The translations under genes and the position numbers were made by a program. Under the pieces are notes generated by a model. The model was not told where the DNA came from. It ran no database searches and saw nothing but the letters and a program-made list of their open reading frames with translations. A DNA stretch of 60,000 nucleotides from Bolinopsis microptera (lineage: Eukaryota > Ctenophora > Tentaculata > Lobata > Bolinopsidae). Below are positions 9,488 to 56,524 of the stretch, one piece after another (within the stretch, counting starts at the first letter, position 1; every line of letters begins with the position of its first letter). The stretch spans positions 18,320,837 through 18,380,836 of the forward strand of contig NC_087073.1 in the NCBI RefSeq assembly GCF_026151205.1, in the 5' to 3' direction.

Positions 9488-9537
<50 letters not shown>
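9488..9537 (+). repeat. Homopolymer of 50 G
   Basis: An uninterrupted run of about 50 G in the left arm. The matching run in the right arm (10938-10961) is only 24 C. The length is unsafe because such tracts are unstable in replication and sequencing. Glycine- or proline-rich open frames over these tracts are artefacts. Confidence 0.95.
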
Positions 9538-44400: not shown

Positions 44401-47400
44401 ATATAGTACAATACCACATTGTATAATATTCTTAACTTTAGACACACCACGCTCAACTCATATTATTATATCACTCTCAAAGCCTTTATGTCCGTGATAT
44501 ATCCCGAAATATCCCGGTCTTTCTGGCCGGAATATCTCTACTTTGGAGCTGAACTCCTGGTGTCCTGTTAGAAACCAATTATCGGGACGATTAAGACAAG
44601 TGGAGGATGACAATACTGGTGATAGATATTAGATAATACAGAACTATCACGTTCAGCCAGCACTGCACCCGTTATGTATAATTTTAGTCGACGAGACGAG
44701 TTCAAATCTCAATAGATATTATGTAGTGCTCTCTCTCAGTTAGAAATCCAGGGTGGTAGAGGAGGTGAACTAAAATAGAGGAGGTTGGAGACTCGAGATG
44801 AGGAGAAGGAGGGTAACGATCTGGTGAGATGGGTATTTTATTGGAACATCACGTGATCATATCATTAGTAATTTAGACATAATTTTAATTGCACTAGATC
44901 AGGTACCTGGCGATGGGATGAATATGACGAACGATCATTGATCACATACATTACCGTCTAGAGTGTTTAATAGATCATTATTGATAAATGGCTTGTTGGG
45001 TATTTTTTTACTATGAATATAATAATAATAATAATAACTGAAATTGATACATCGCTTTATAGCAAAAAAGAACTCAAAACCCAAAGATTCAGTTCAAGCC
45101 ATCTAAAGCAACTCATGAATATGTACATAGTCATAAGAACTTATTTTTATGAAGTATGGGTTTTATGAGAAAATTATTATATGTTACTTATATGAATGCT
45201 TTATATATATTTAATAACCCACATGAAATACTCTCGGAAATACAGAGGTACTAGAACATAGCAAGATTGTATATTATTCCTCTGATTAACACCCAGAAAA
45301 TCGCTCAAAGTTTCTACGGTGATCTACATAATATTTTGTGTAAGGTGCTCTGAAATGTGTGCTGAAGTACAGTTCACACATACTTTTAATTCACCCTAAT
45401 TTTCAGCTACATTCTAGTCCAGGAACATGATGTAGCTCAACTATTGTAGACGGTGGAGAGATGTGTATATTATTGTCAGTTAGAGTACAATTAACAGTCA
45501 ATCAGGGAGCGAGCTGGGGGAGATGCAGCCCTACAACTACTGTAGGATGTGGGTCTACCAGGCTAAGCGGAGACATTGCTTGTATCATGTCTCCAGTAAT
45601 CCTGGTCAAGGAGATAACTTCCTCTTTTATATAATCAACATTATTTATCAAAGTTTCTCGTTTCGGTTTTCAGCCAGGACAACGAAAACAGCCAATCTTG
45701 TAAATTTTTGCTTGATATGCCGCACTGAGCCAAAGTGAAAAGTAGTTAGAAAATAGAAGTACATATGTCTAGCAGACATGTTGACTTGTCGCGACCGTAC
45801 CACAACACTTCCCCTCCGGCCACTGGTTGGAAAGTGTACGTGTATTATTATATGTTGTGTAGTGAAGAGGACCTGAAGATCAAAGGTCATCCATCCCACG
45901 CGCGTGCGATTTATTGGACAGAACTACAGAGGAACTTGCGCCTTTGAACTTGTACATTTTTTAATTTTGACAAATTAGCAGTGCCCTCTTGGTTTGGGTG
46001 TTTCAAATATAACCTGGCAAATCCAACTAGACTAACAATGCTGAGGAACAGTTTACCCTCCCCGTGACAAATTGACGCTGTGTTAGGTAATTTCCCTTTG
46101 TAGATATAGAACAGGACGTCTTACAAATCGACACAGAAAAAATAACAAACCAACAGAATTAGAGAAAAATGAGAAAATATTAGAGAAACGTTTAAAGATA
46201 AAACTTACTGTTCTGACATCGCACTCGGGAGCAAAACCCCAGGTACCACAGGACATTATATCAGTTTCTGAGAGCATGAGAAGCACTTTGTAATAATTCT
46301 GGCAATCCTCCTGAAATATAATTATGTTAATTATGTTTCAAGTATTGAATATCATAATTATAATTTTAATGGTACATTCAAATTGAATATTTTGTTTAAT
46401 TTCTCAATTTTTGATCAATCATTAAAAAATGTAGCTCCAAAACTACAATGGGTTCGTGCTTGTAAGTTTATCATAATATTGTGATCTTTAATAATAGTAT
46501 GATATCGCTACAACAAGCTGCATGGATTGATGATTCTAACAATGCACTGAGTGTAATGCACCTGAGCTGGGTGCTGCACTATTGTACTACTATTTATATC
46601 CTATCTCCATTAGCTAAATTTAAAGGCACTAACAATAACTTCACACAAGCATACACATAAGCCCAACAGGAAACATGTTCCAAGTATGTTAAGTATGTAG
46701 CTCCCTCTCTATCACCACTTCAAAGAACATTAGCGGCACATATTATACCCATAATTCAAAATGTGCTTCACATATCCTTGAGGTATCTGGTATAGCCTAA
46801 ACAAATTACACAACATGTGACATCAAATAGTAGAACGTGTAACGTGAGTTTAAGATTTAGATTTGAAATTAAACACGTTGGGTTTTTTAAATGTATATAC
46901 TGGTAACTTTTCTGGGAGATTTGTTGTAATCGTAAGATCAGTTTATAAAACTTGAATTAAATGACTCACTGTCTTTTTAAAGGTTTAGAGTTCACAATTT
47001 AACCACGTCTATTTATCATGATCTGTTCAAATGAATCCACTCTAAAGGATTGGCTAGCCGAATATAGCTAAATCAGCTCTGTCAAAAACATGATAAAGTT
47101 TCACCCATTCTTTTAACTCGCTAAAACTCGTGAATACTGAAAGCAACACTTTTTGCGCAGACTAATATGGTTCGCCTGTTCAAAGATAATGGGTTCAATT
47201 TTAAGGAGCTCAAACATGCTGACAAACTTAGATTCACTAGTTCTAGAAACTTCCATAAACTTCTGAGAAACTATGTTTCAAGGGATGGTTTAGAACTGAC
47301 ATATTGCAATCTACGACTACTTAACATGTTTTATTGAAGATGATAACTTAAAACACGTTTTATTGAAGCTGAGAGCTTAAAACACATTTTATTGAAGATG

Positions 47401-50400
47401 AGAGCTATAACTAAAAACAAACAGATCTGTTCTGATGTTGGGAACACTGCTTTTACTCTTTTATTAGAAAGTGATATGGTAAAAAGAGCTGAAGTGTACA
47501 ATTCCTGGGATACCCCAAAAAACATTCCACAATGCCCACTTTGTCAGAGTAGATTAAAAATAACAGAATATTCCGGAGCCGGAGCCCCTTAGGGCCGCTA
47601 CATGTGCCCTACTATTGTACTACACAATCTACTATTACATTATAAAGTTTCATCATCATCATAATATGATATCCTTCAGTCATCGATAGAAAATAACTGT
47701 ACAGTTTGAGGCCAATTAATCGAGCTGATCTCCGAGCTGATTAATGAGGGAACAAGCAGATAAGTTAAAGTCACGTGACATCACGTTATAAAGCAGTGTA
47801 GTGTGACGGTAACCATATAAGGGCATGTCATGTGAGGTAAGCCAAGTTTACGATAAAAGACTTATTCACGAGGGAACATGTCATAGTGTCGGTAATGAGA
47901 TTGGGAGATAATAAAGTCACGTGATACGCCGACAGGTCACTTGACGTGATTTCAAGCAAATTCATTGGCTGAAGAGAGGGTTCCGTGGTTATGGATTATA
48001 TAAGTCAGCTGATGTTGAGAAATAAAACTTGAGCTGTTTACGTAAACATGCAGCCCGCTTATCTCTGACAGACCAGTGTAAGTTTGTGCAAGACAGTGAG
48101 ATTAATTGGAATCCAATCAGTAACCACGCAGTATGACCAGGATATCAAGTGTTAATTTGTTACGGTCTGTTAATGATAGTTGGGTGGAGCATCATCAGTG
48201 TGACCCCTCGCTGATCAGGGAGCTAATCACTAATTAGAATTTCAAGTAATGATATAATGAAGATACCGGGAGTATGAAATATCTGGGACAAATGCACGGT
48301 GTAGTCTCCATTATTACTATACTATAGATCTGAAACATTCAGAAAATGAGCTCACCTAGACCCTGTAGTTATTAATAGAAATGACAGATATTACAAGTGA
48401 ACCCTGTGCAATCAGGCGATTAACCGGAGATAGCTGAGTAGACTTCAGAGACAATGGACCATACAATTTGTCCTGATCGGTTCAGATAGGAAACCTTTAA
48501 ACGTTGAGAAGTATCTAGATACAACTGTGGGGGGATTGTAGGGTTTCACTGGTTATGCTGACGAGGTGTTTGGCGAATTAGACCGAGTTTCATGAAAGCA
48601 ATCACTATGATTGAGTGTGCACCCACTGGGCTTGATCGGCGTGTATTGGATATGGTGTGATTGTACGGCATGAGATTGCCAATATTTTAGTAGGAGATTT
48701 GTGGGTATGATATGAGATTGCCAATATTTTAGCAGGTGATTTGTGGGTATGATATTTAATAAGATTGCCAATATTTTAGCAGATTTGTAAGAAAATATAC
48801 CTCAATTCGTCCCTCTTCCATACACTGTTCAACTCTTGCCTCCAGCTGATCCTGAAGTGGATTAGAGTTAAATCATTTGAATCATATATCGTAACCATTT
48901 AATGGTACAACTCAAATGATTGCCTTATATAATTCTATCATAATCTGAGAGGCAAACGACCGGCATTTTCTGTCGTTTAACTGCGATTTGGAGTCACTTA
49001 TCCCAGAGAACAGCATCACGACTTGTCATCTATTCCCATATATTCTTAATAAACCTTAAACGATCATAAATTGGGTTCTCACATAACGGTAAAAATGACA
49101 GTTTTATATAAACTGATTGGAAAGGTTGGAAAATAAACCGGCGGGAGCTTGACAATTGTCCTGCCGCTAAATCATGTTAAGCTACAAGCCGAAAGTTATA
49201 TAATATCGGAGAAGCTTTCCAGCATGATGCAGTGATGTCAACCGTTTTTAGTCGGTACTGAGCAGACGTGCAGCAGTCTGCTTTACATTGGTAGAAAATA
49301 TGAAAGTTAATAATGTAACCAGTAATCCGATTAAGAGGTACACTAAGTCTTACCCTAGACAGGCATGGCAAATAGAAGTTTAATGAATCAAATGAGATCA
49401 AAAAATCTTGTCATTTGCGCGGATACGCATTGAAGGGAGCCTCTGTTACACCATATTATTCCATCACATACCGGGAATCATTTTCATTAATATTTACATG
49501 GTAAATAATCGCACATTAATATGGTTAGTGCGTAGCAGTGGACTTCCTCAGATATTGCTATGAATTTAGTTGGCAAAATTGTACTGTAATGGTTTTTACG
49601 ATAGCTATTAGGGCTACATAATTTAGTTAGTTGACGTATATCCAATTAAGGATGTAACCAGGTGCTAAATGACGACGTATTTTACAATGGTTTTGAAATC
49701 TCTATAATAATCCGATATAAAGAAGCAAAATGGTTATATATGGAAATTTTGATGAGCACTAATAAGATATTTGACATCTTTCACGATGAATGATAAACGT
49801 GGCACTCAGGTGCCAGTCTTTGGGGTAATAGAAGTGTTTCCATCTTTATTGACTAATATCAAAGCATTGTTACTCATTTTGCCGCTGGAGTGGCATCTAA
49901 TTTCACCACCATACAAATAGTAAGAGAAACATAATTCTCAGCCCGGGGAGTAATGGGTTTATCAGGTAAAATTAGGGTAATCTAAACAGGGACTACTGTC
50001 TGGGCGACCTGCTAACTTATCTGAGTGTCACCCAATCTTGTTTTTACACCTCACCACAGGATCACAATGTACAATAATCAAAAGCAATCAGAATTTTACA
50101 CCTCCAATCTAACACCCTCTTAGAGGGGAACTTGATAAGCGTGATTTGATTAGTATGAGGTCTCTCCCCTGCTTTTCAGGAATCCTATATTATAGAGGGA
50201 TAGAAATAATTCAAAATCAGGTCTGTTTTGAACCAGAATTTGAGTTCAGTGTAATCATGCACTGGATACAGATTTAGGTCTTGATGGCATCGATGGTATC
50301 TGAGTTGAAAATGTAAGGACTTTACTTACAGATCCGTCTTTGTAGGAGGTATGTGTATCTGTTAGCATATCGACTGAATGTATGGTGTTCCTGAAGAGGG

Positions 50401-53400
50401 GTATCAGTTAGGTCCCATAAAATTTAACATCGAGAATCGAAGCATTATTTTGCAGTTTTGAAATATTCAAGTTAATGGTGGTTTCATGAAACGGTAATTG
50501 GGTTTTGTCATATATGTATAATGCATGAGCGGGAAAAACGTTCTTTGTATGGAAGATTTGTCTTTGTAGCGCCATGTTGGAATTAACATGGCTTTAATTA
50601 TAATATTGGACCAGGTCTCAGGGCGGGGCACAGGGCAGACCTGTGTCCAGTTGGCAGGAATGTACCCTGACGAAAAGTCCACGCGCACAGACTAAAATTT
50701 GCCCTTATATCAGCCATTGTGCCCACCCAATTTCAATTTGAGTTATCGTTTAGTTAGGTCAGAATGAGGCAGTCTGTGTCCATGGGAAAATTTTAACTGT
50801 CTTTTTAGCATGGACAATGGTGCGGCGTCTCAAATCTCACCACTGAACTGGAACCAGACACTGCGAACAAGCGTAAGACAGGTCTCACGCGGCGATACTT
50901 GTGACCAGCGCAACATATTAGCCACTATTGTCGAACAATTACTAGAAGAATTCCTTGGTGCAGGGTTCACTTTAGGGGCCGCTGGAGTAGCTGGCACAGA
51001 AGTTTCGAGAGTTTTGATTGGGCGCGCATGACATGCCTTCGTCCAATGAGCGTATTGGGTGTCTCTAGTTGGGGTGTTCTAAGATTAGGATGTAATTGTA
51101 GGTGTGAAATATCACAGGTTTTGCTAAATAGAATTATTAGATCAAAGATACAAGGTGAGCTGTTTCAGGATTATTACATAAACAGGCCTCGTTATCAGCA
51201 GTAAAAGTAACTCTGATGATAAACATGCGCCACCAGGCGTCTAAGTCATTTTATTCCAACCGGGAAAAGAAGCCCTTCATTCATACCTTTTCAGATATGA
51301 ATGATGCAAAGTATATTTTGAAGGTTTCGCGAATGCGCGGATGTTTTTAAAGGAAATGTCAGACAGCTTCCTTTCCCGGTTCCCACCCTTCTAATTTAAT
51401 TGACCGCGCAGTTGATGCACACTAATAGATTTTATTCAATCAAGTCTGATGTAATTGCTGTTTTGTAAGATAAGACACTGCAACATATCATCAAGTCACA
51501 GAGGCGAGTAAGGAGCGTCATCTCTAAAAAGGTTCCAAAAATTACCCCGCACCACCATACCTGTTACCTTTCCGCAGTGACGCAACCGCGTAATATCCGT
51601 TAGCGATACATATCAGATATGAGGTTAAACGACAATTTGCAAGGATTCATGGTGCCAAATCGGTGCTAGATTGCCAATTGCGTCACAATGCAAGTCGCGT
51701 TAATGTTAATGAAACATTACAATTGCCATGTTTACTAGGCCACGCGTAATGATATGTCTTCGCAATTGCAGACTTCGGAACCTGTGGCCGGCTACTTGGT
51801 ATATTTAGGGGTGTCGTAGGGTGCTAAATCTGGAAACGGTCTAAATAGCGGGCTTCGTTAAGGTGCGCGTAATGACCCCGGAAAATTGGTTACTTTGAGT
51901 ATGCTTATGATGACATGAAATATGAATAGTGCTTGTATGTAATGACATCAGTTAACCTTCATTATTGGAAACTCAAATGGGGTCAAAAATAAATAAAGTT
52001 CCTGATTATCAACATTTAGTATACATTTTAATTAAAATGATAAATTAGTCATTAGCAATGCATAAGCAAGTTATAGATAATAAAGAGGCACATTTTAAAT
52101 AATATAAATGGATTTAAATTCAATACATTTTATTTTATACTGTACAGCACAATCATGAAACAAATGCTATTTTTTCTTCAAATTTGTTAACAATGATAAT
52201 ATGATATGGAGCTGTACAGAACTAATATAATGATATAGTTATCTAATATAATGATATAGTTATCTAATATAATGATATAGTTATCTAATATAATGATATA
52301 GTTATCTAATATAATGATATATTAGTTATCTGAAACATACCTGCTGTACAGAACCAATAATATAGTTATCTGAAACATACCTGCTGTACAGAACCAATAA
52401 TATAGTTATCTGAAACATACCTGCTGTACAGAACCAATAATATAGTTATCTGAAACATACCTGCTGTACAGAACCAATAATATAGTTATCTGAAACATAC
52501 CTGCTGTACAGAACCAATAATATAGTTATCTGAAACATACCTGCTCTACAGAACCAATAATATTGTTATCTGAAACATACCTGCAGTACAGAACCAATAA
52601 TATAGTTATCTGAAACATACCTGCTCTACAGAACCAATAATATAGTTATCTGAAACATACCTGCTGTACAGAACCAATAATATAGTTATCTGAAACATAC
52701 CTGCTCTACAGAACCAATAATATAGTTATCTGAAACATACCTGCTGTACAGAACCAATAATATAGTTATCTGAAACATACCTGCTGTACAGAACCAATAA
52801 TATAGTTATCTGAAACATACCTGCTCTACAGAACCAATAATATAGTTATCTGAAACATACCTGCTGTACAGAACCAATAATATAGTTATCTGAAACATAC
52901 CTGCTCTACAGAACCAATAATATAGTTATCTGAAACATACCTGCTGTACAGAACCAATAAAATAGTTATCTGAAACATACCTGCTGTACAGAACCAATAA
53001 TATAGTTATCTGAAACATACCTGCTGTACAGAACCAATAATATAGTTATCTGAAACATACCTGCTGTACAGAACCAATAATATAGTTATCTGAAACATAC
53101 CTGCTGTACAGAACCAATAATATAGTTATCTGAAACATACCTGCTCTACAGAACCAATAATATTGTTATCTGAAACATACCTGCAGTACAGAACCAATAA
53201 TATAGTTATCTGAAACATAATTGCTGTACAGAACCAATAATATAGTTATCTGAAACATACCTGCTGTACAGAACCAATAATATAGTTATCTGAAACATAC
53301 CTGCTGTACAGAACCAATAATATAGTTATCTGAAACATACCTGCTGTACAGAACCAATAATATAGTTATCTGAAACATACCTGCCGCCTAAGATGAGGGT

Positions 53401-56400
53401 ATTGGAAGTGACAAATAGCATTGACATGAACATTGCACTGTCATCGTAGTACTGGTTACAACCCTGGCAATCTGAAAATGGTATACCTTTAAACCACGCT
53501 GGGTGTGGGAAATGGCTTCCCATAAGTTTGAACATTCATTCATTTTATTACCTTACAAGGTCTGTTGAAGTTGCAGAACAAACCTTTAAACCCAGTAATC
53601 TGATCAAGCAATTACTTCAAGTTAAAAAGTAAACACTGTATTTAGGTTGTCTAATAGTTTGAAATGTTATGCTTAATAGCCTTTTGGTCACGTTGTTATT
53701 CCATCTCTATTCCCTATACGCAAATAATCATATCACAAGCTGATTTGATAAACCCTTTATTGCTTCAAGTGGTCGCATATTATGCAGGCGTCTGTGTAAT
53801 TTTTGTCATAAATATTTGATGCTACCTTATAAATTTAGTCATTGGTTAGGAAAAACAAATTAAATATCCCGCAATTTCAACTGTAATCACTTTATGGCGG
53901 TATGAAGATTCAAGCACCAAACATCATGATCCCCATTTTATTTACACAGGGGTCCCCACGAGTCTCTGAAATAGATCCACCTTGGTATATGCTTTAATAC
54001 GTCGCAAATTAGTTCAGGTGTAATGCTCAAAGCGGGTTGGGAGTCTGGTGTCTGAATGTAATGTTCCAGTCACCGTGAGCTGTTCCTTGTGTTACACAGG
54101 ATTCACATATCAGTCATTTCGAGTGTGATGTTTTCTAAATTTCTAGCATACCAGACAAACGGACATTTAAAAAACTTGGTCTCTCTTATAACACCGGAAA
54201 GAATAGAAATGATGGTGCAGTTTCATCCGAGAAAAGGATGACGCTAGATTCTGACAGATTCTGCGGAAGTATTTGAATATATTTTTGCTTGGTTTACTCA
54301 AAGCGGACGAGGAAATTTGTAGAACCTGTCAGAAAAACAAGAACTAGCGAGTGTAAAACCGGGCGTGTACCCTCTCAGAGGAGTACACAGTTGCAGCAGT
54401 TGTGGGAGCACAGATATCCTTTGATCTATGACACTGATGTGTGAGCAACTTATGATCGTTTATAAATACAGTTACAGCTTCAATATATTATATAGTTATA
54501 GTTTCAACACACACTCGGAATCCTTTTGTGTCCGACATTTCCAATAACCAGCTTAACTTAAAATTGTACCGTTCAATGATCTCAATTGCTAGCACCAAGC
54601 CCGCCCAATTAACCTCAACCCTAACGTAGCAACATGATTACAGTTAACATTGATACTAGAGATTTCCGGGTGGGTTCGTATTGCAAGACAAGGTTAAAAC
54701 GAGGGTAGTGTGGTACAGGGAAAAGGTGATTAAGAATGTTGCGGTATTGGGCTGTCAAACTAGAGGAGTACTTGTGCAGTTGACTAATCCCGTCTACTGT
54801 CTAGAAATACTATTGTGTAGTTTATTTAGCTACAATTCACTAATTGGCTCAATATACTCTGTCTTCATGTGTTAGCCAGACAGAATAACTGATTCGGGAA
54901 TCAGGGTGGTGGTTGGATAAAGTCTCAAAATACCCGTTACGTTTCAGAAAATGTTGTTATTCTTCAAATACGAGATATTTGCAGTAAAACAGTTGAAAGT
55001 GTTGGCTTTAGGGGCCTTGTAAATTTAGTAGTACAGCGTTTGAGTAGACTTTTACTGTGGTTAATTCAAGTAGGGTGGTACTGTTTGGTATTCTTTACAA
55101 AATAGCAATTAATACAACCGAGGGACGTGGACATGGTCGAGTCTTATATCCTGGCTAAAGGGTAGTTTTTATATTAATTTCATAATTTGATGAAACATGC
55201 AAAAGGGCTCCATGCCACAACCTTCAGGGGTCAATGCCTACTTTAATTTCTAGGTATAAAAGAAATCCGCAAAGCCAAATATATATTATATATATATATT
55301 ATAAAATATAAAGTTGGCACTTCAAGTTGAACATAGTTTACGCTGACAGTATTTTGATCGAATACAATCAAAATACTCGGCTAAGTTGTCAAAGTGGCCA
55401 TCACAGTATTAATGTAACCCATCAGAATCTAAGTACAATTTATGATTGTTCTATCAACCTGGTGACCTTGCTTTGACAAGTTGCCCCCTAATACTAATAG
55501 AAACGTTAAATATTCTCCCTCTGCTTCGTGATTGAGCACAAATTAAATGTCAATTTGTCAGAGCTTCAATCTAATATCATGTTAGGTTAGCCCCAAAGTA
55601 GTTGGTTCATCTATTAGACAGCATGTTATGGAGCAGAACTATTTACTTCAATATTCTCCCTTTTAGAATGACCATATGATTATCTTCATTAAAGTTGCAC
55701 AATATTTAAATATCATGTATATATCAATCAATGGTTAAAGCTAAGATTGTTCATTTCACATTTCCCGGCTAAGAAGTCTAAATATGTTCATCACATTTGT
55801 TTTACCCTACCATGTCCTTAGTAAGAATGTAGAGAACACACACTAATTACAACATGGACACAAAAGGGCTAATCTTCTACACAGTAGCTGTTCAATAATA
55901 CCAGGTAGAACCTTAATTGAATGAAACAAAGTACTCCAGCTTTATAAACTAATTGAGAACCATCCTATGTGGTCCCGAGATATCGAGCTCGACACACACT
56001 CGCATAGTACTACAAAAAGACAGAGCGTTGAGTACGAAACAATGGTGCATATTTTGACTGAAAATTTGAGAGTTCAAGTGTTCTTGAATAGCTTTTGCAA
56101 TAATTTCCACATCTAAAATCTATGTTTCCCTCCCCTTGTAGACTTGAAATATTTAAACTATGTATCGTTTATGTTAGCACAGCACTACATGGTATATTGT
56201 AACGGGTTCTGTCAGTGTACACAAGTTGAAAATTGGGCCCTAGTTTGCGGTTTCCTTAGTCCGGTGACAGAAATGTCACGTGACTGAAACAAGTGGTCTA
56301 GAGTGAAGAGTCCTCGCTGTGCTGCAGCGAATCACATTAATTGAAACAGGAAATGGGTTACATCACAATTACAAGTTATGATACTAGAGTAAACAAAAAT

Positions 56401-56524
56401 GGGCAGAAGTTATAGTGCTAATTGAAGATCTTAACTTACCATAATCAGTGAGTTGCAGCCACCTCTGCAGACCTGTGACACATCCACAGCCGACCAGTAG
56501 TAATAACCATGTAAGTGATCCCAT
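17441..56524 (-). CDS. Transmembrane semaphorin: sema, PSI, two Ig, TM, proline-rich tail
   Basis: Nineteen coding exons (minus, 5' to 3'): 56440-56524, 53381-53471, 50330-50390, 48801-48851, 46209-46310, 37278-37380, 34470-34675, 33122-33272, 31362-31413, 30793-30922, 30137-30237, 28676-28746, 22380-22453, 21480-21592, 19425-19562, 19026-19270, 18575-18853, 18272-18429, 17441-18115. All introns are GT-AG and phases agree throughout: 2886 nt, 961 residues. Signal peptide MGSLTWLLLLVGCGCVTG; the start is fixed by it. Sema domain about 30-463 (QNYYKVLLMLSETDIMSCGTW, SRIGRVCKNDVG, SIVCSFPIGAIDEVFDGPY). PSI domain 464-510 with FPYCGWCSD. Ig domains about 511-591 and 592-684. Membrane span about 703-727, then RRRKQKR. 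The tail (738-961) has PLRPPPISPPVLPPG and ends SSAI, a possible class I PDZ ligand. Semaphorins signal through plexins in guidance and adhesion. Two Ig domains plus a TM tail fits no vertebrate class exactly. TTTCTAG directly before the ATG may mark a 5' leader intron. Confidence 0.93.
18116..21479 (-). other. Semaphorin introns 14-18
   Basis: Introns 15-18 are short (145-172 bases). Intron 14 (19563-21479) is 1.9 kb and contains an imperfect GC-rich inverted repeat (GGAACGCGCGCAC near 19913 with GTGCGCGTTCC near 19967), and nothing else I recognise. Confidence 0.6.
23704..23729. promoter_or_regulatory. Triple CACGTG cluster in semaphorin intron 12
   Basis: Three CACGTG palindromes in 26 bases (23704, 23711, 23724), each followed by A, with a fourth at about 23761. 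This fits a homotypic bHLH-ZIP binding cluster. Function is inferred only from site density. Confidence 0.4.
28577..28643 (-). repeat. 16-bp tandem repeat beside the exon 12 donor
   Basis: About four copies of ATTGTTAGAGAATGTA, ending some 30 bases from the 5' splice site of semaphorin exon 12 (exon end 28676). Confidence 0.85.
28747..34469 (-). other. Semaphorin introns 7-11
   Basis: Introns 11 (28747-30136), 10 (30238-30792), 9 (30923-31361), 8 (31414-33121) and 7 (33273-34469). AT-rich without recognisable genes or elements. Open frames here are short, lack domains and mostly shadow the exons. Confidence 0.55.
36688..36747. repeat. 21-bp tandem repeat, about three copies
   Basis: Short direct repeat of AAGGTCCCCAGTACAGTTTA with the last copy partial. 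Confidence 0.85.
37077..37126. repeat. 24-bp inverted repeat with 2-base loop
   Basis: Left arm 37077-37100 begins AATTGAAACAATC; right arm 37103-37126 is its complement with one mismatch, which would be a G-U pair in one transcript. It lies about 150 bases downstream of semaphorin exon 6 in the intron. The tiny loop and 50-base length argue against an ordinary microRNA precursor; a very short palindromic element is as likely. Confidence 0.8.
39574..39713. repeat. Row of four hairpins
   Basis: Four successive inverted repeats in 140 bases: ATAAACCC/GGGTTTAT (39574-39599), CAGATCATCCCGC with its complement around GCTA (39606-39635), GTGCGC/GCGCAC with outer AACACA/TGTGTT (39639-39676) and ATGTAATCCC/GGGATTACAT (39680-39713). 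Downstream GC-rich pieces such as AGCGGGCCGGG (near 40250 and 40314) repeat. It resembles a small transposon or structured DNA; no matching ends were found. Confidence 0.7.
40064..40147. promoter_or_regulatory. Five CACGTG palindromes in 84 bases
   Basis: CACGTG at 40064, 40084, 40118, 40129 and 40142, in a locally CpG-rich segment, with another near 40378. Likely a bHLH-ZIP binding cluster, perhaps an intronic enhancer or alternative promoter. Binding and activity are inferred. Confidence 0.45.
40458..40536. repeat. 21-22-bp tandem repeat, about four copies
   Basis: Repeats of AGAGATACCYCACAT plus 6-7 bases, ending about 100 bases before the TTAA foldback element. Confidence 0.8.
40638..41368. 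mobile_element. TTAA-flanked foldback element (piggyBac-like MITE), 731 bp
   Basis: The element is almost entirely one palindrome: left arm 40638-40994, 20-base loop 40995-41014, right arm 41015-41368, with only a few differences. It is flanked by TTAA on both sides (40634-40637 and 41369-41372), the target duplication of piggyBac elements, and the ends read GGGGGCAGGGG with its complement. No coding capacity. Arm identity suggests a recent origin or copying between arms. It lies inside semaphorin intron 5, where an RNA copy would form a very long hairpin. Confidence 0.85.
42147..42194. repeat. 24-bp tandem duplication
   Basis: Two adjacent copies of CTAGATATCATCTCTTAACG plus AGAT. Confidence 0.85.
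47771..48030 (+). promoter_or_regulatory. Promoter-like stretch inside semaphorin intron 4
   Basis: Two TCACGTGA palindromes (47772 and about 47921), an inverted CCAAT (ATTGG near 47966) and a TATATAA box (about 47996-48002) are ordered as in a TATA promoter pointing plus, antisense to the semaphorin. The arrangement resembles that upstream of the TULP4-like gene. No downstream plus-strand gene was found, so it may be chance, a repeat or a noncoding promoter. Confidence 0.3.
48673..48800 (-). repeat. Imperfect tandem repeat abutting the exon 4 donor
   Basis: Three imperfect copies of GATTGCCAATATTTTAGCAG followed by GATTTGTGGG, ending directly at the 5' splice site of exon 4. Confidence 0.8.
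48852..50329 (-). other. Semaphorin intron 3
   Basis: AT-rich, no feature recognised on either strand. Confidence 0.5.
50810..51031 (+). CDS. Possible nested small protein in semaphorin intron 2
   Basis: A 73-codon frame starts with ATG and is preceded by TAACTGTCTTTTTAG, which reads as a splice acceptor. Codons are mixed in GC and the protein has a plausible sequence (DQRNILATIVEQLLEEFLGAG then TLGAAGVAGTEVSRVL) with an amphipathic helix. I do not recognise it. It lies antisense to the semaphorin. No clear polyadenylation signal follows and no upstream exon was identified. It may be a small gene, one exon of a gene, or chance. Confidence 0.3.
   Translation: MDNGAASQISPLNWNQTLRTSVRQVSRGDTCDQRNILATIVEQLLEEFLGAGFTLGAAGVAGTEVSRVLIGRA
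52222..52321 (-). repeat. 21-bp tandem repeat, about five copies
   Basis: Copies of TATCTAATATAATGATATAGT, next to and apparently derived from the 40-bp array: the flanking GCTGTACAGAAC and AGTTATCT are shared with it. Confidence 0.85.
52322..53380 (-). repeat. 40-bp minisatellite built from the exon 2 splice donor
   Basis: About 26 copies of a 40-bp unit, joined directly to semaphorin exon 2. On minus each unit starts GTATGTTTCAGATAAC and ends GGTTCTGTACAGCAG, so each junction recreates CAG|GTATGT, the same donor used by exon 2. Variants (TGTAGAGCAG, TGTACTGCAG, TAACAATA) occur in an order that repeats after 600 bp (units at 52541-52600 and 53141-53200), implying a second-level duplication of 15 units. 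It is not a CRISPR array: there are no unique spacers. Confidence 0.95.
53472..56439 (-). other. Semaphorin intron 1
   Basis: AT-rich, with a TA-rich simple tract near 55280-55310. No gene or mobile element recognised. Confidence 0.5.

Follow-up and report, generated by a model that had tools for sequence, protein, structure and literature searches.

A splice-junction minisatellite with 26 donor copies in a probable semaphorin-type gene of the ctenophore Bolinopsis microptera

The stretch of Bolinopsis microptera DNA analysed here, 60,000 nucleotides in all and called the window below, holds a gene on its minus strand whose second intron opens with a long tandem array of 40-bp units. The predicted exons of this gene and the arrays at its second exon are as follows.

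56440..56524, minus strand: predicted exon 1, from the predicted ATG, with a signal-peptide-like start MGSLTWLLLLVGCGCVTGLQRWLQLTDY, donor TATG|GTAAGT, phase 1
53381..53471, minus strand: predicted exon 2, DCQGCNQYYDDSAMFMSMLFVTSNTLILGG(R), acceptor CCATTTTCAG|A, donor GGCAG|GTATGT, phase 2, in frame with exons 1 and 3
52323..53384, minus strand: 40-bp minisatellite, unit GTATGTTTCAGATAACTATATTATTGGTTCTGTACAGCAG, with 26 exact CAG|GTATGT, the exon 2 donor among these
53181..53220, minus strand: the single donor-less unit of that array, beginning CAA|TTATGT (donor position 53220), from the reading in 40-mers
52222..52321, minus strand: second array, 21 bp x 4.8, perfect, abutting the 40-bp array, with ATAACTATAT common to both (TRF; likeness judged by eye)
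50330..50390, minus strand: predicted exon 3, (R)NTIHSVDMLTDTHTSYKDGS, acceptor CCCCTCTTCAG, donor TCT|GTAAGT
48801..48851, minus strand: predicted exon 4, DQLEARVEQCMEEGRIE, donor GAG|GTATAT
46209..46310, minus strand: predicted exon 5, EDCQNYYKVLLMLSETDIMSCGTWGFAPECDVRT, a conserved semaphorin block, also from Sema alignments

The predicted exons 1 to 5 give a single open frame if the first donor is used. When this exon chain was joined to a further block near 37.4 kb and the peptide was compared with the PDB set, it matched Sema4D (E 5.1e-11) and Sema1A (E 6e-11), with the last part of the exon 2 segment falling within both alignments. The gene hosting the 40-bp array is probably of semaphorin type, the label that an earlier note on this DNA had already given it and that these two matches bear out. 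The Pfam Sema model gave no match in the 60-kb window or in two joined peptides, which suggests that the gene is a divergent one. Two other repeats were observed in the window, namely a 42-bp array of 2.6 copies at 48670-48782, about 18 nt into intron 4 and just past the predicted donor of exon 4, and a poly-G run of 50 G at window positions 9488-9537 (TRF).

Intron 2 extends from 53380 to 50391 (2,990 nt), and the 40-bp array occupies approximately its first third. For the array, TRF gave a period of 40, 26.5 copies, 97% matches and a score of 2033, in agreement with the earlier description of a tandem array of about 26 copies in this intron, and the array touches the exon 2 donor CAG|GTATGT, as had also been noted, by overlapping the final 4 exon bases, GCAG. 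Cutting the transcribed minus strand into 40-mers from the exon 2 donor, 53380 downwards, yields 26 whole units and a partial 27th, with 16 identical units. In the 60-kb window the word CAGGTATGT is present in 26 places on the minus strand, always inside the 40-bp array, and is absent from the plus strand; the first of the 26 CAG|GTATGT is the exon 2 donor itself and the remaining 25 are intronic copies. The claim that every unit recreates this donor therefore stands for 26 periods and fails for one, which reads CAA|TTATGT. An AG lies directly 5' of the GT at all 25 intronic donors, so that the layout of a recursive splice site proposed earlier, also that of a dual-specific site, is indeed present, and it does so in three junction variants: ACAGCAG|GTATGT (17 donors), AGAGCAG|GTATGT (6) and ACTGCAG|GTATGT (2). 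Different unit variants follow one another in alternation through the array and recur in blocks; one donor in 27 has been lost, but given this recurrence in blocks no selection on the donors is claimed.

A search of the 264.65-Mb genome, in which very common words were skipped, did not find the 40-bp unit at other places, nor did it find a dispersed satellite or a segmental paralogue of the semaphorin locus, which was seen as one copy. Past the 21-bp array, the flank has a single ATTAGTTCTGTACAGCTCC / ATTAGTTCTGTACAGC that by eye is close to the 3' part of the 40-bp unit. Taken together, the absence of the unit elsewhere in the genome, this relative in the flank and the related 21-bp array make the unit look home-grown.

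The array is a real and clean splice-junction minisatellite, and it is of a known kind. A minisatellite with multiple splice donors in human IFI6 (6-16) was reportedly described by Turri et al. in 1995, to judge by the title of that work, and is said to lie at the exon 2 donor and to consist of about 26 copies of a 12-bp unit. The earlier statement that no minisatellite of this type had been described does not hold, because both the IFI6 array and the mirage minisatellites of amphioxus are already in the literature, as the portions of these papers drawn on here make clear (PMC4526556, PMC3087553, PMC3902484). In IFI6 as in the semaphorin gene the minisatellite units carry splice donors, and for IFI6 the use of extra donors has been reported, two downstream repeat units being employed in this way according to the portion of that report drawn on here (PMC4526556).

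Mirage minisatellites have been described at the exon-intron boundaries of the amphioxus globin and Adh3 genes, where, according to that part of the report, the data suggest that regular splicing is undisturbed and the repeats were proposed as a source of introns (PMC3087553). TnC and PGBD5 are named as further mirage genes in the corresponding part of a later paper (PMC3902484). As far as these portions go, the mirages of Adh3, troponin C, the globins BflGb6 and BflGb9, and PGBD5 share with the semaphorin array that they are tandem repeats at a boundary with AG/GT in many units; either boundary may be affected, the Adh3 unit measures 10-72 bp, and the copy number of BflGb6 differs between haplotypes (PMC3087553, PMC3902484). 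Both structural marks of a mirage, an overlap with the exon-intron boundary (here 4 nt) and an AG/GT signal in the units, are found in the semaphorin array. Mirages have been reported from cephalochordates and the present host is a ctenophore, a difference in the place where such repeats have been seen and not in their structure; the semaphorin array also differs in overlapping only 4 exon bases and in having 26 donors. The sequence of the genome itself likewise reads as that of a ctenophore. A glutamate receptor (iGluR, L048) had its best matches in ML032222a (7.7e-62), a Mnemiopsis protein, and in 4zdm (1.7e-54), a kainate-like receptor of Pleurobrachia, all others being at 5.5e-29 or weaker; a second receptor, L047, lacked this pattern and was matched best by delta-1 (2.4e-25). 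Among the homeodomain matches listed, all except one fall on C1-C13, and inspection by eye showed no extended run resembling the Hox cluster of bilaterians; 13 chromosomes are reported for the ctenophore Hormiphora (PMC8527503). An amphioxus origin of the DNA was rejected on the homeodomain and receptor results. Human UBC and others likewise have repeat units bounded by AG|GT, each a potential acceptor and donor, but in UBC the units are coding and their use has been measured (PMC10809524), whereas the semaphorin units are intronic. In comparison with IFI6, the mirages and UBC alike, the semaphorin donors are predicted from sequence. In the Rogers model of intron gain an AGGT segment is duplicated in tandem, a feature in common with the semaphorin array; at the semaphorin locus the duplication lies at the donor of an intron that already exists, and no new intron is seen. 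In fission yeasts, as stated in part of the source, introns extend across two or four duplicates of 24 bp (PMC4974935). The semaphorin array, striking as it is, belongs to a kind of repeat already described and does not amount to a new mechanism.

Arrays of donor words at splice junctions are not confined to this gene. We searched the genome (264,652,675 bases in 232 contigs) and inspected 26 places with arrays of at least three donor words, taken from the matches listed first in contig order (6 + 9 + 2 new + 9), the first of the two sets of nine including the window's own array and the three-donor place L032. A junction was counted as homology-supported when it lay in or at the array and the match had an E value of 0.01 or better. 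Among the matches listed, 10 of the 26 inspected places had such a junction, and in 9 of the 26 it was accompanied by the donor word on the gene's own strand. Besides the semaphorin gene, the places with matches to known proteins were the following.

G000:C2:15839500-15841400 (L031): BBS8 exon, 21 donors, PDB match at E 1e-22
C2:15891000-15892600 (L032): duplicate BBS8 exon, 3 donors, by likeness to L031
L033: dynein heavy chain, Dynein_C at 5.2e-7
G000:C1:884500-886000 (L037): dynein heavy chain, E 4.5e-7
G000:C10:4506100-4508100 (L057): homeobox gene, Q|VWFQNRR intron of 771 nt with 20 donors, homeodomain at E 3.2e-13
L030: SLC6-type transporter, array on the acceptor side, SNF at 3.7e-12
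L014: copine, array on the acceptor side, Pfam 1.5e-4, under the curated cut-off
L052: MABP1/WDR62-like WD40 protein, Pfam 6.2e-5, under the curated cut-off
L035: Sushi protein, Pfam 0.0038, under the curated cut-off

It is the shortness of the exon pieces that puts the scores of the copine, the WD40 protein and the Sushi protein under the Pfam cut-offs. One further place is weak (L011, Sushi at 0.043), and ten are read from an open frame and splice consensus alone (L009, its duplicate L012, L027, L028, L029, L034, L050, L051, L054 and L056); among these, the Pfam search reached no better than 0.042 for L050 and gave no match for L051, L054 and L056. Five more of the inspected places (L010, L013, L053, L055 and L058) have no clear junction reading. 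At L014, L009, L012 and L029 the gene that was read and the searched donor word are on different strands, the word being absent from the strand of the gene, so the word there is not the gene's donor. In the four cases tested, the exon part held in common with the unit was 4 nt for the semaphorin gene, 3 for BBS8, 8 for the dynein at L033 and 26 for the Sushi gene at L011, and this overlap of 3-26 nt rules out that the array edge always falls at the junction. By crude scaling, nine listed CAGGTATGT places in about 54 of 265 Mb would correspond to about 44 in the whole genome.

Several of these places have peculiarities of their own. Nearly bare donor words form the 11-bp arrays at L034 (AACAGGTATGT, about 143 copies) and at L055 (AACAGGTAAGT, about 48 copies). 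Most of the homeobox intron is made up of an array of 35-bp donor units, and in the joined frame a stop follows soon after the homeodomain. At L037, a 171-bp coding stretch of the dynein heavy chain exon is duplicated in frame beside the donor array.

How far the donor word as such is overrepresented was considered by reading the patterns backwards. AGGTRWGT repeated three times gave 4,974 matches against 548 backwards, and 4,842 against 755 with gaps of 41-71; CAGGTATGT three times gave 283 against 22, and CAGGTAAGT three times 451 against 0. The permuted control word GTGARWTG, also three times, gave 1,491 matches and its own reverse 3,770, and we therefore do not claim that donors drive the formation of arrays. 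All these matches count units rather than arrays, with long arrays weighing heavily; on account of this weighting and of the permuted-word counts, what is claimed is the recurrence of junction arrays and not an enrichment of donors.

Among the six permuted-word arrays listed, no homology-supported junction was seen inside an array, the far end of the L044/L045 array lying outside the inspected stretch. Three of the six are near a matched exon: at L038 a gap of 19 nt separates the array end from the acceptor of the Sushi exon (2.6e-8) that follows, at L039 the array begins 16 nt past a dynein exon (3.2e-4), and at L044 there are 70 nt between a Sushi-like exon (0.0052) and the array start. Closeness to exons is therefore also found in this genome for arrays of other words. 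The ratios of 10 in 26 donor-word places and 0 in 6 control arrays show no clear difference at such a sample size. At L038 (G000:C1:396000-397500; Sushi exon at about 856-1026), a neighbouring array overlaps the donor of the exon as well.

Duplicated loci show a labile copy number next to a preserved exon. The two BBS8 places, L031 and L032, lie 51 kb apart and share 94% identity over 845 nt, but L031 has 21 donors and L032 has 3; on the exon side they differ at 4 positions in 206 nt and their last 67 residues are identical. Similarly, the duplicates L009 and L012 have 36 and 24 donors. Each of these pairs may represent paralogues or unmerged haplotypes.

What the array donors could do in splicing was assessed by prediction. 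Pairing with the U1 5' end was predicted at -8.5 for the unit donor, and the fourteen further donors listed ranged from -5.6 to -12.7; of the 191 GT in intron 2, 27 are predicted to pair at least as strongly as the unit donor, and 25 of these are array copies. Since the array donors have the same sequence as the exon 2 donor, their U1 pairing is equal, and the donor itself gives the first copy no advantage. The 14 nt before the array AG contain 8-9 pyrimidines, compared with 7-11 at seven comparison acceptors, and TAAC is present upstream in the 40-bp unit. By these predictions the array sites are plausible as splice sites. When joined to exon 3, all 25 intronic CAG|GTATGT lead to a premature stop, the first of them (+40) through a frameshift and the other 24 through a stop within the retained array; a splice step that ended at the ACAG|CAG acceptor would lengthen the message by a single codon in frame.

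We consider it probable, and hold this with fair confidence, that the array is a minisatellite of the mirage/IFI6 type that arose by duplication at the boundary and grew by slippage or unequal exchange, with its donors as tolerated passengers. A short tandem duplication at the boundary of exon 2 and intron 2, with its breakpoint in the GCAG common to the exon end and the unit end, would have been expanded to about 26 units, presumably by slippage or else by unequal exchange, and the donors would have been copied along as the array grew. The first donor, joined to exon 3, would give the normal message and would be the one mainly used, and the gene would tolerate the array because exon 2 and its own first donor are intact. 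This passenger reading is supported by the array edge, by the open frame of the predicted exons, by the junction arrays in other genes and by the copy numbers that differ between near-identical duplicates. A point against it is that in human IFI6, to go by part of the report, two downstream repeat units do serve as donors (PMC4526556).

The same IFI6 observation favours an alternative that we regard as unlikely, in which a fraction of the transcripts would use the array donors as decoys or regulated sites. Array-donor use would always wreck the frame and would hence lower output through nonsense-mediated decay in a manner dependent on copy number. The stops reached from all 25 downstream donors, the U1 pairing of the unit donor within the range of other donors, and the 25 array copies among the 27 strongest GT are all consistent with such decoys, but the amphioxus Adh and TnC mirages were reported, in the relevant part of the paper, to occur without aberrant mRNA (PMC3902484).

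Less probable still is stepwise removal of the intron, in which the AG|GT units would serve as acceptor and then as donor, in steps of at least two units, and would leave the message unchanged. The AG before each of the 25 internal donors and the pyrimidine content before it would suit such a role. The ACAG is damaged at 8 of the 25 junctions, however, and a single 40-nt unit is probably below the workable length of an intron, so that a step would probably need two units or more. Recursive splice sites of the fly occur in introns of tens of kb, whereas intron 2 has just 2,990 nt.

It is very improbable that the copy number is an effect of assembly, with a true array that is longer or shorter although itself real. 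The semaphorin locus was seen as one copy in one assembly, and the BBS8 pair could consist of unmerged haplotypes, but the alternating unit variants would be unlike the residue of a simple collapse. Bulk recruitment of U1, by which 26 identical donors in 1.06 kb at the intron start would guard the transcript from early polyadenylation or strengthen the definition of exon 2, is highly improbable and leaves unexplained both the acceptor-side arrays (L030 and L014) and the four inspected arrays in genes opposite to the donor-word strand (L009, L012, L014 and L029, of which only L014 is supported by homology).

The semaphorin array probably places splice-junction minisatellites in a new phylum. 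Among the papers listed, a search of the open-access literature by title and start of abstract found no ctenophore report of such arrays, and its scope makes this weak evidence of novelty. The recurrence of junction arrays in one ctenophore genome suggests that mirage-type minisatellites are more widely spread than amphioxus, and this spread is likely the new element here. With its 26 copies of one donor, the semaphorin array offers a natural way to test how the spliceosome chooses among identical 5' splice sites, every wrong pick being predicted to lead to a stop, and the recurrent arrays, including the duplicate exons with 21 and 3 donors, are replicates for testing tolerance and intron gain, the BBS8 pair in particular being a natural long and short pair for a splicing test. 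A bolder and distinctly doubtful idea is that junction arrays recur across many genes of this ctenophore and that their AG|GT units persist because any number of them can be spliced out, so that arrays at a junction would be silent at any length, their units would be interchangeable as donors and acceptors, and direct and stepwise splicing would together take out the semaphorin array. If this were true, arrays of this class would still be giving rise to new introns and to variation at junctions.
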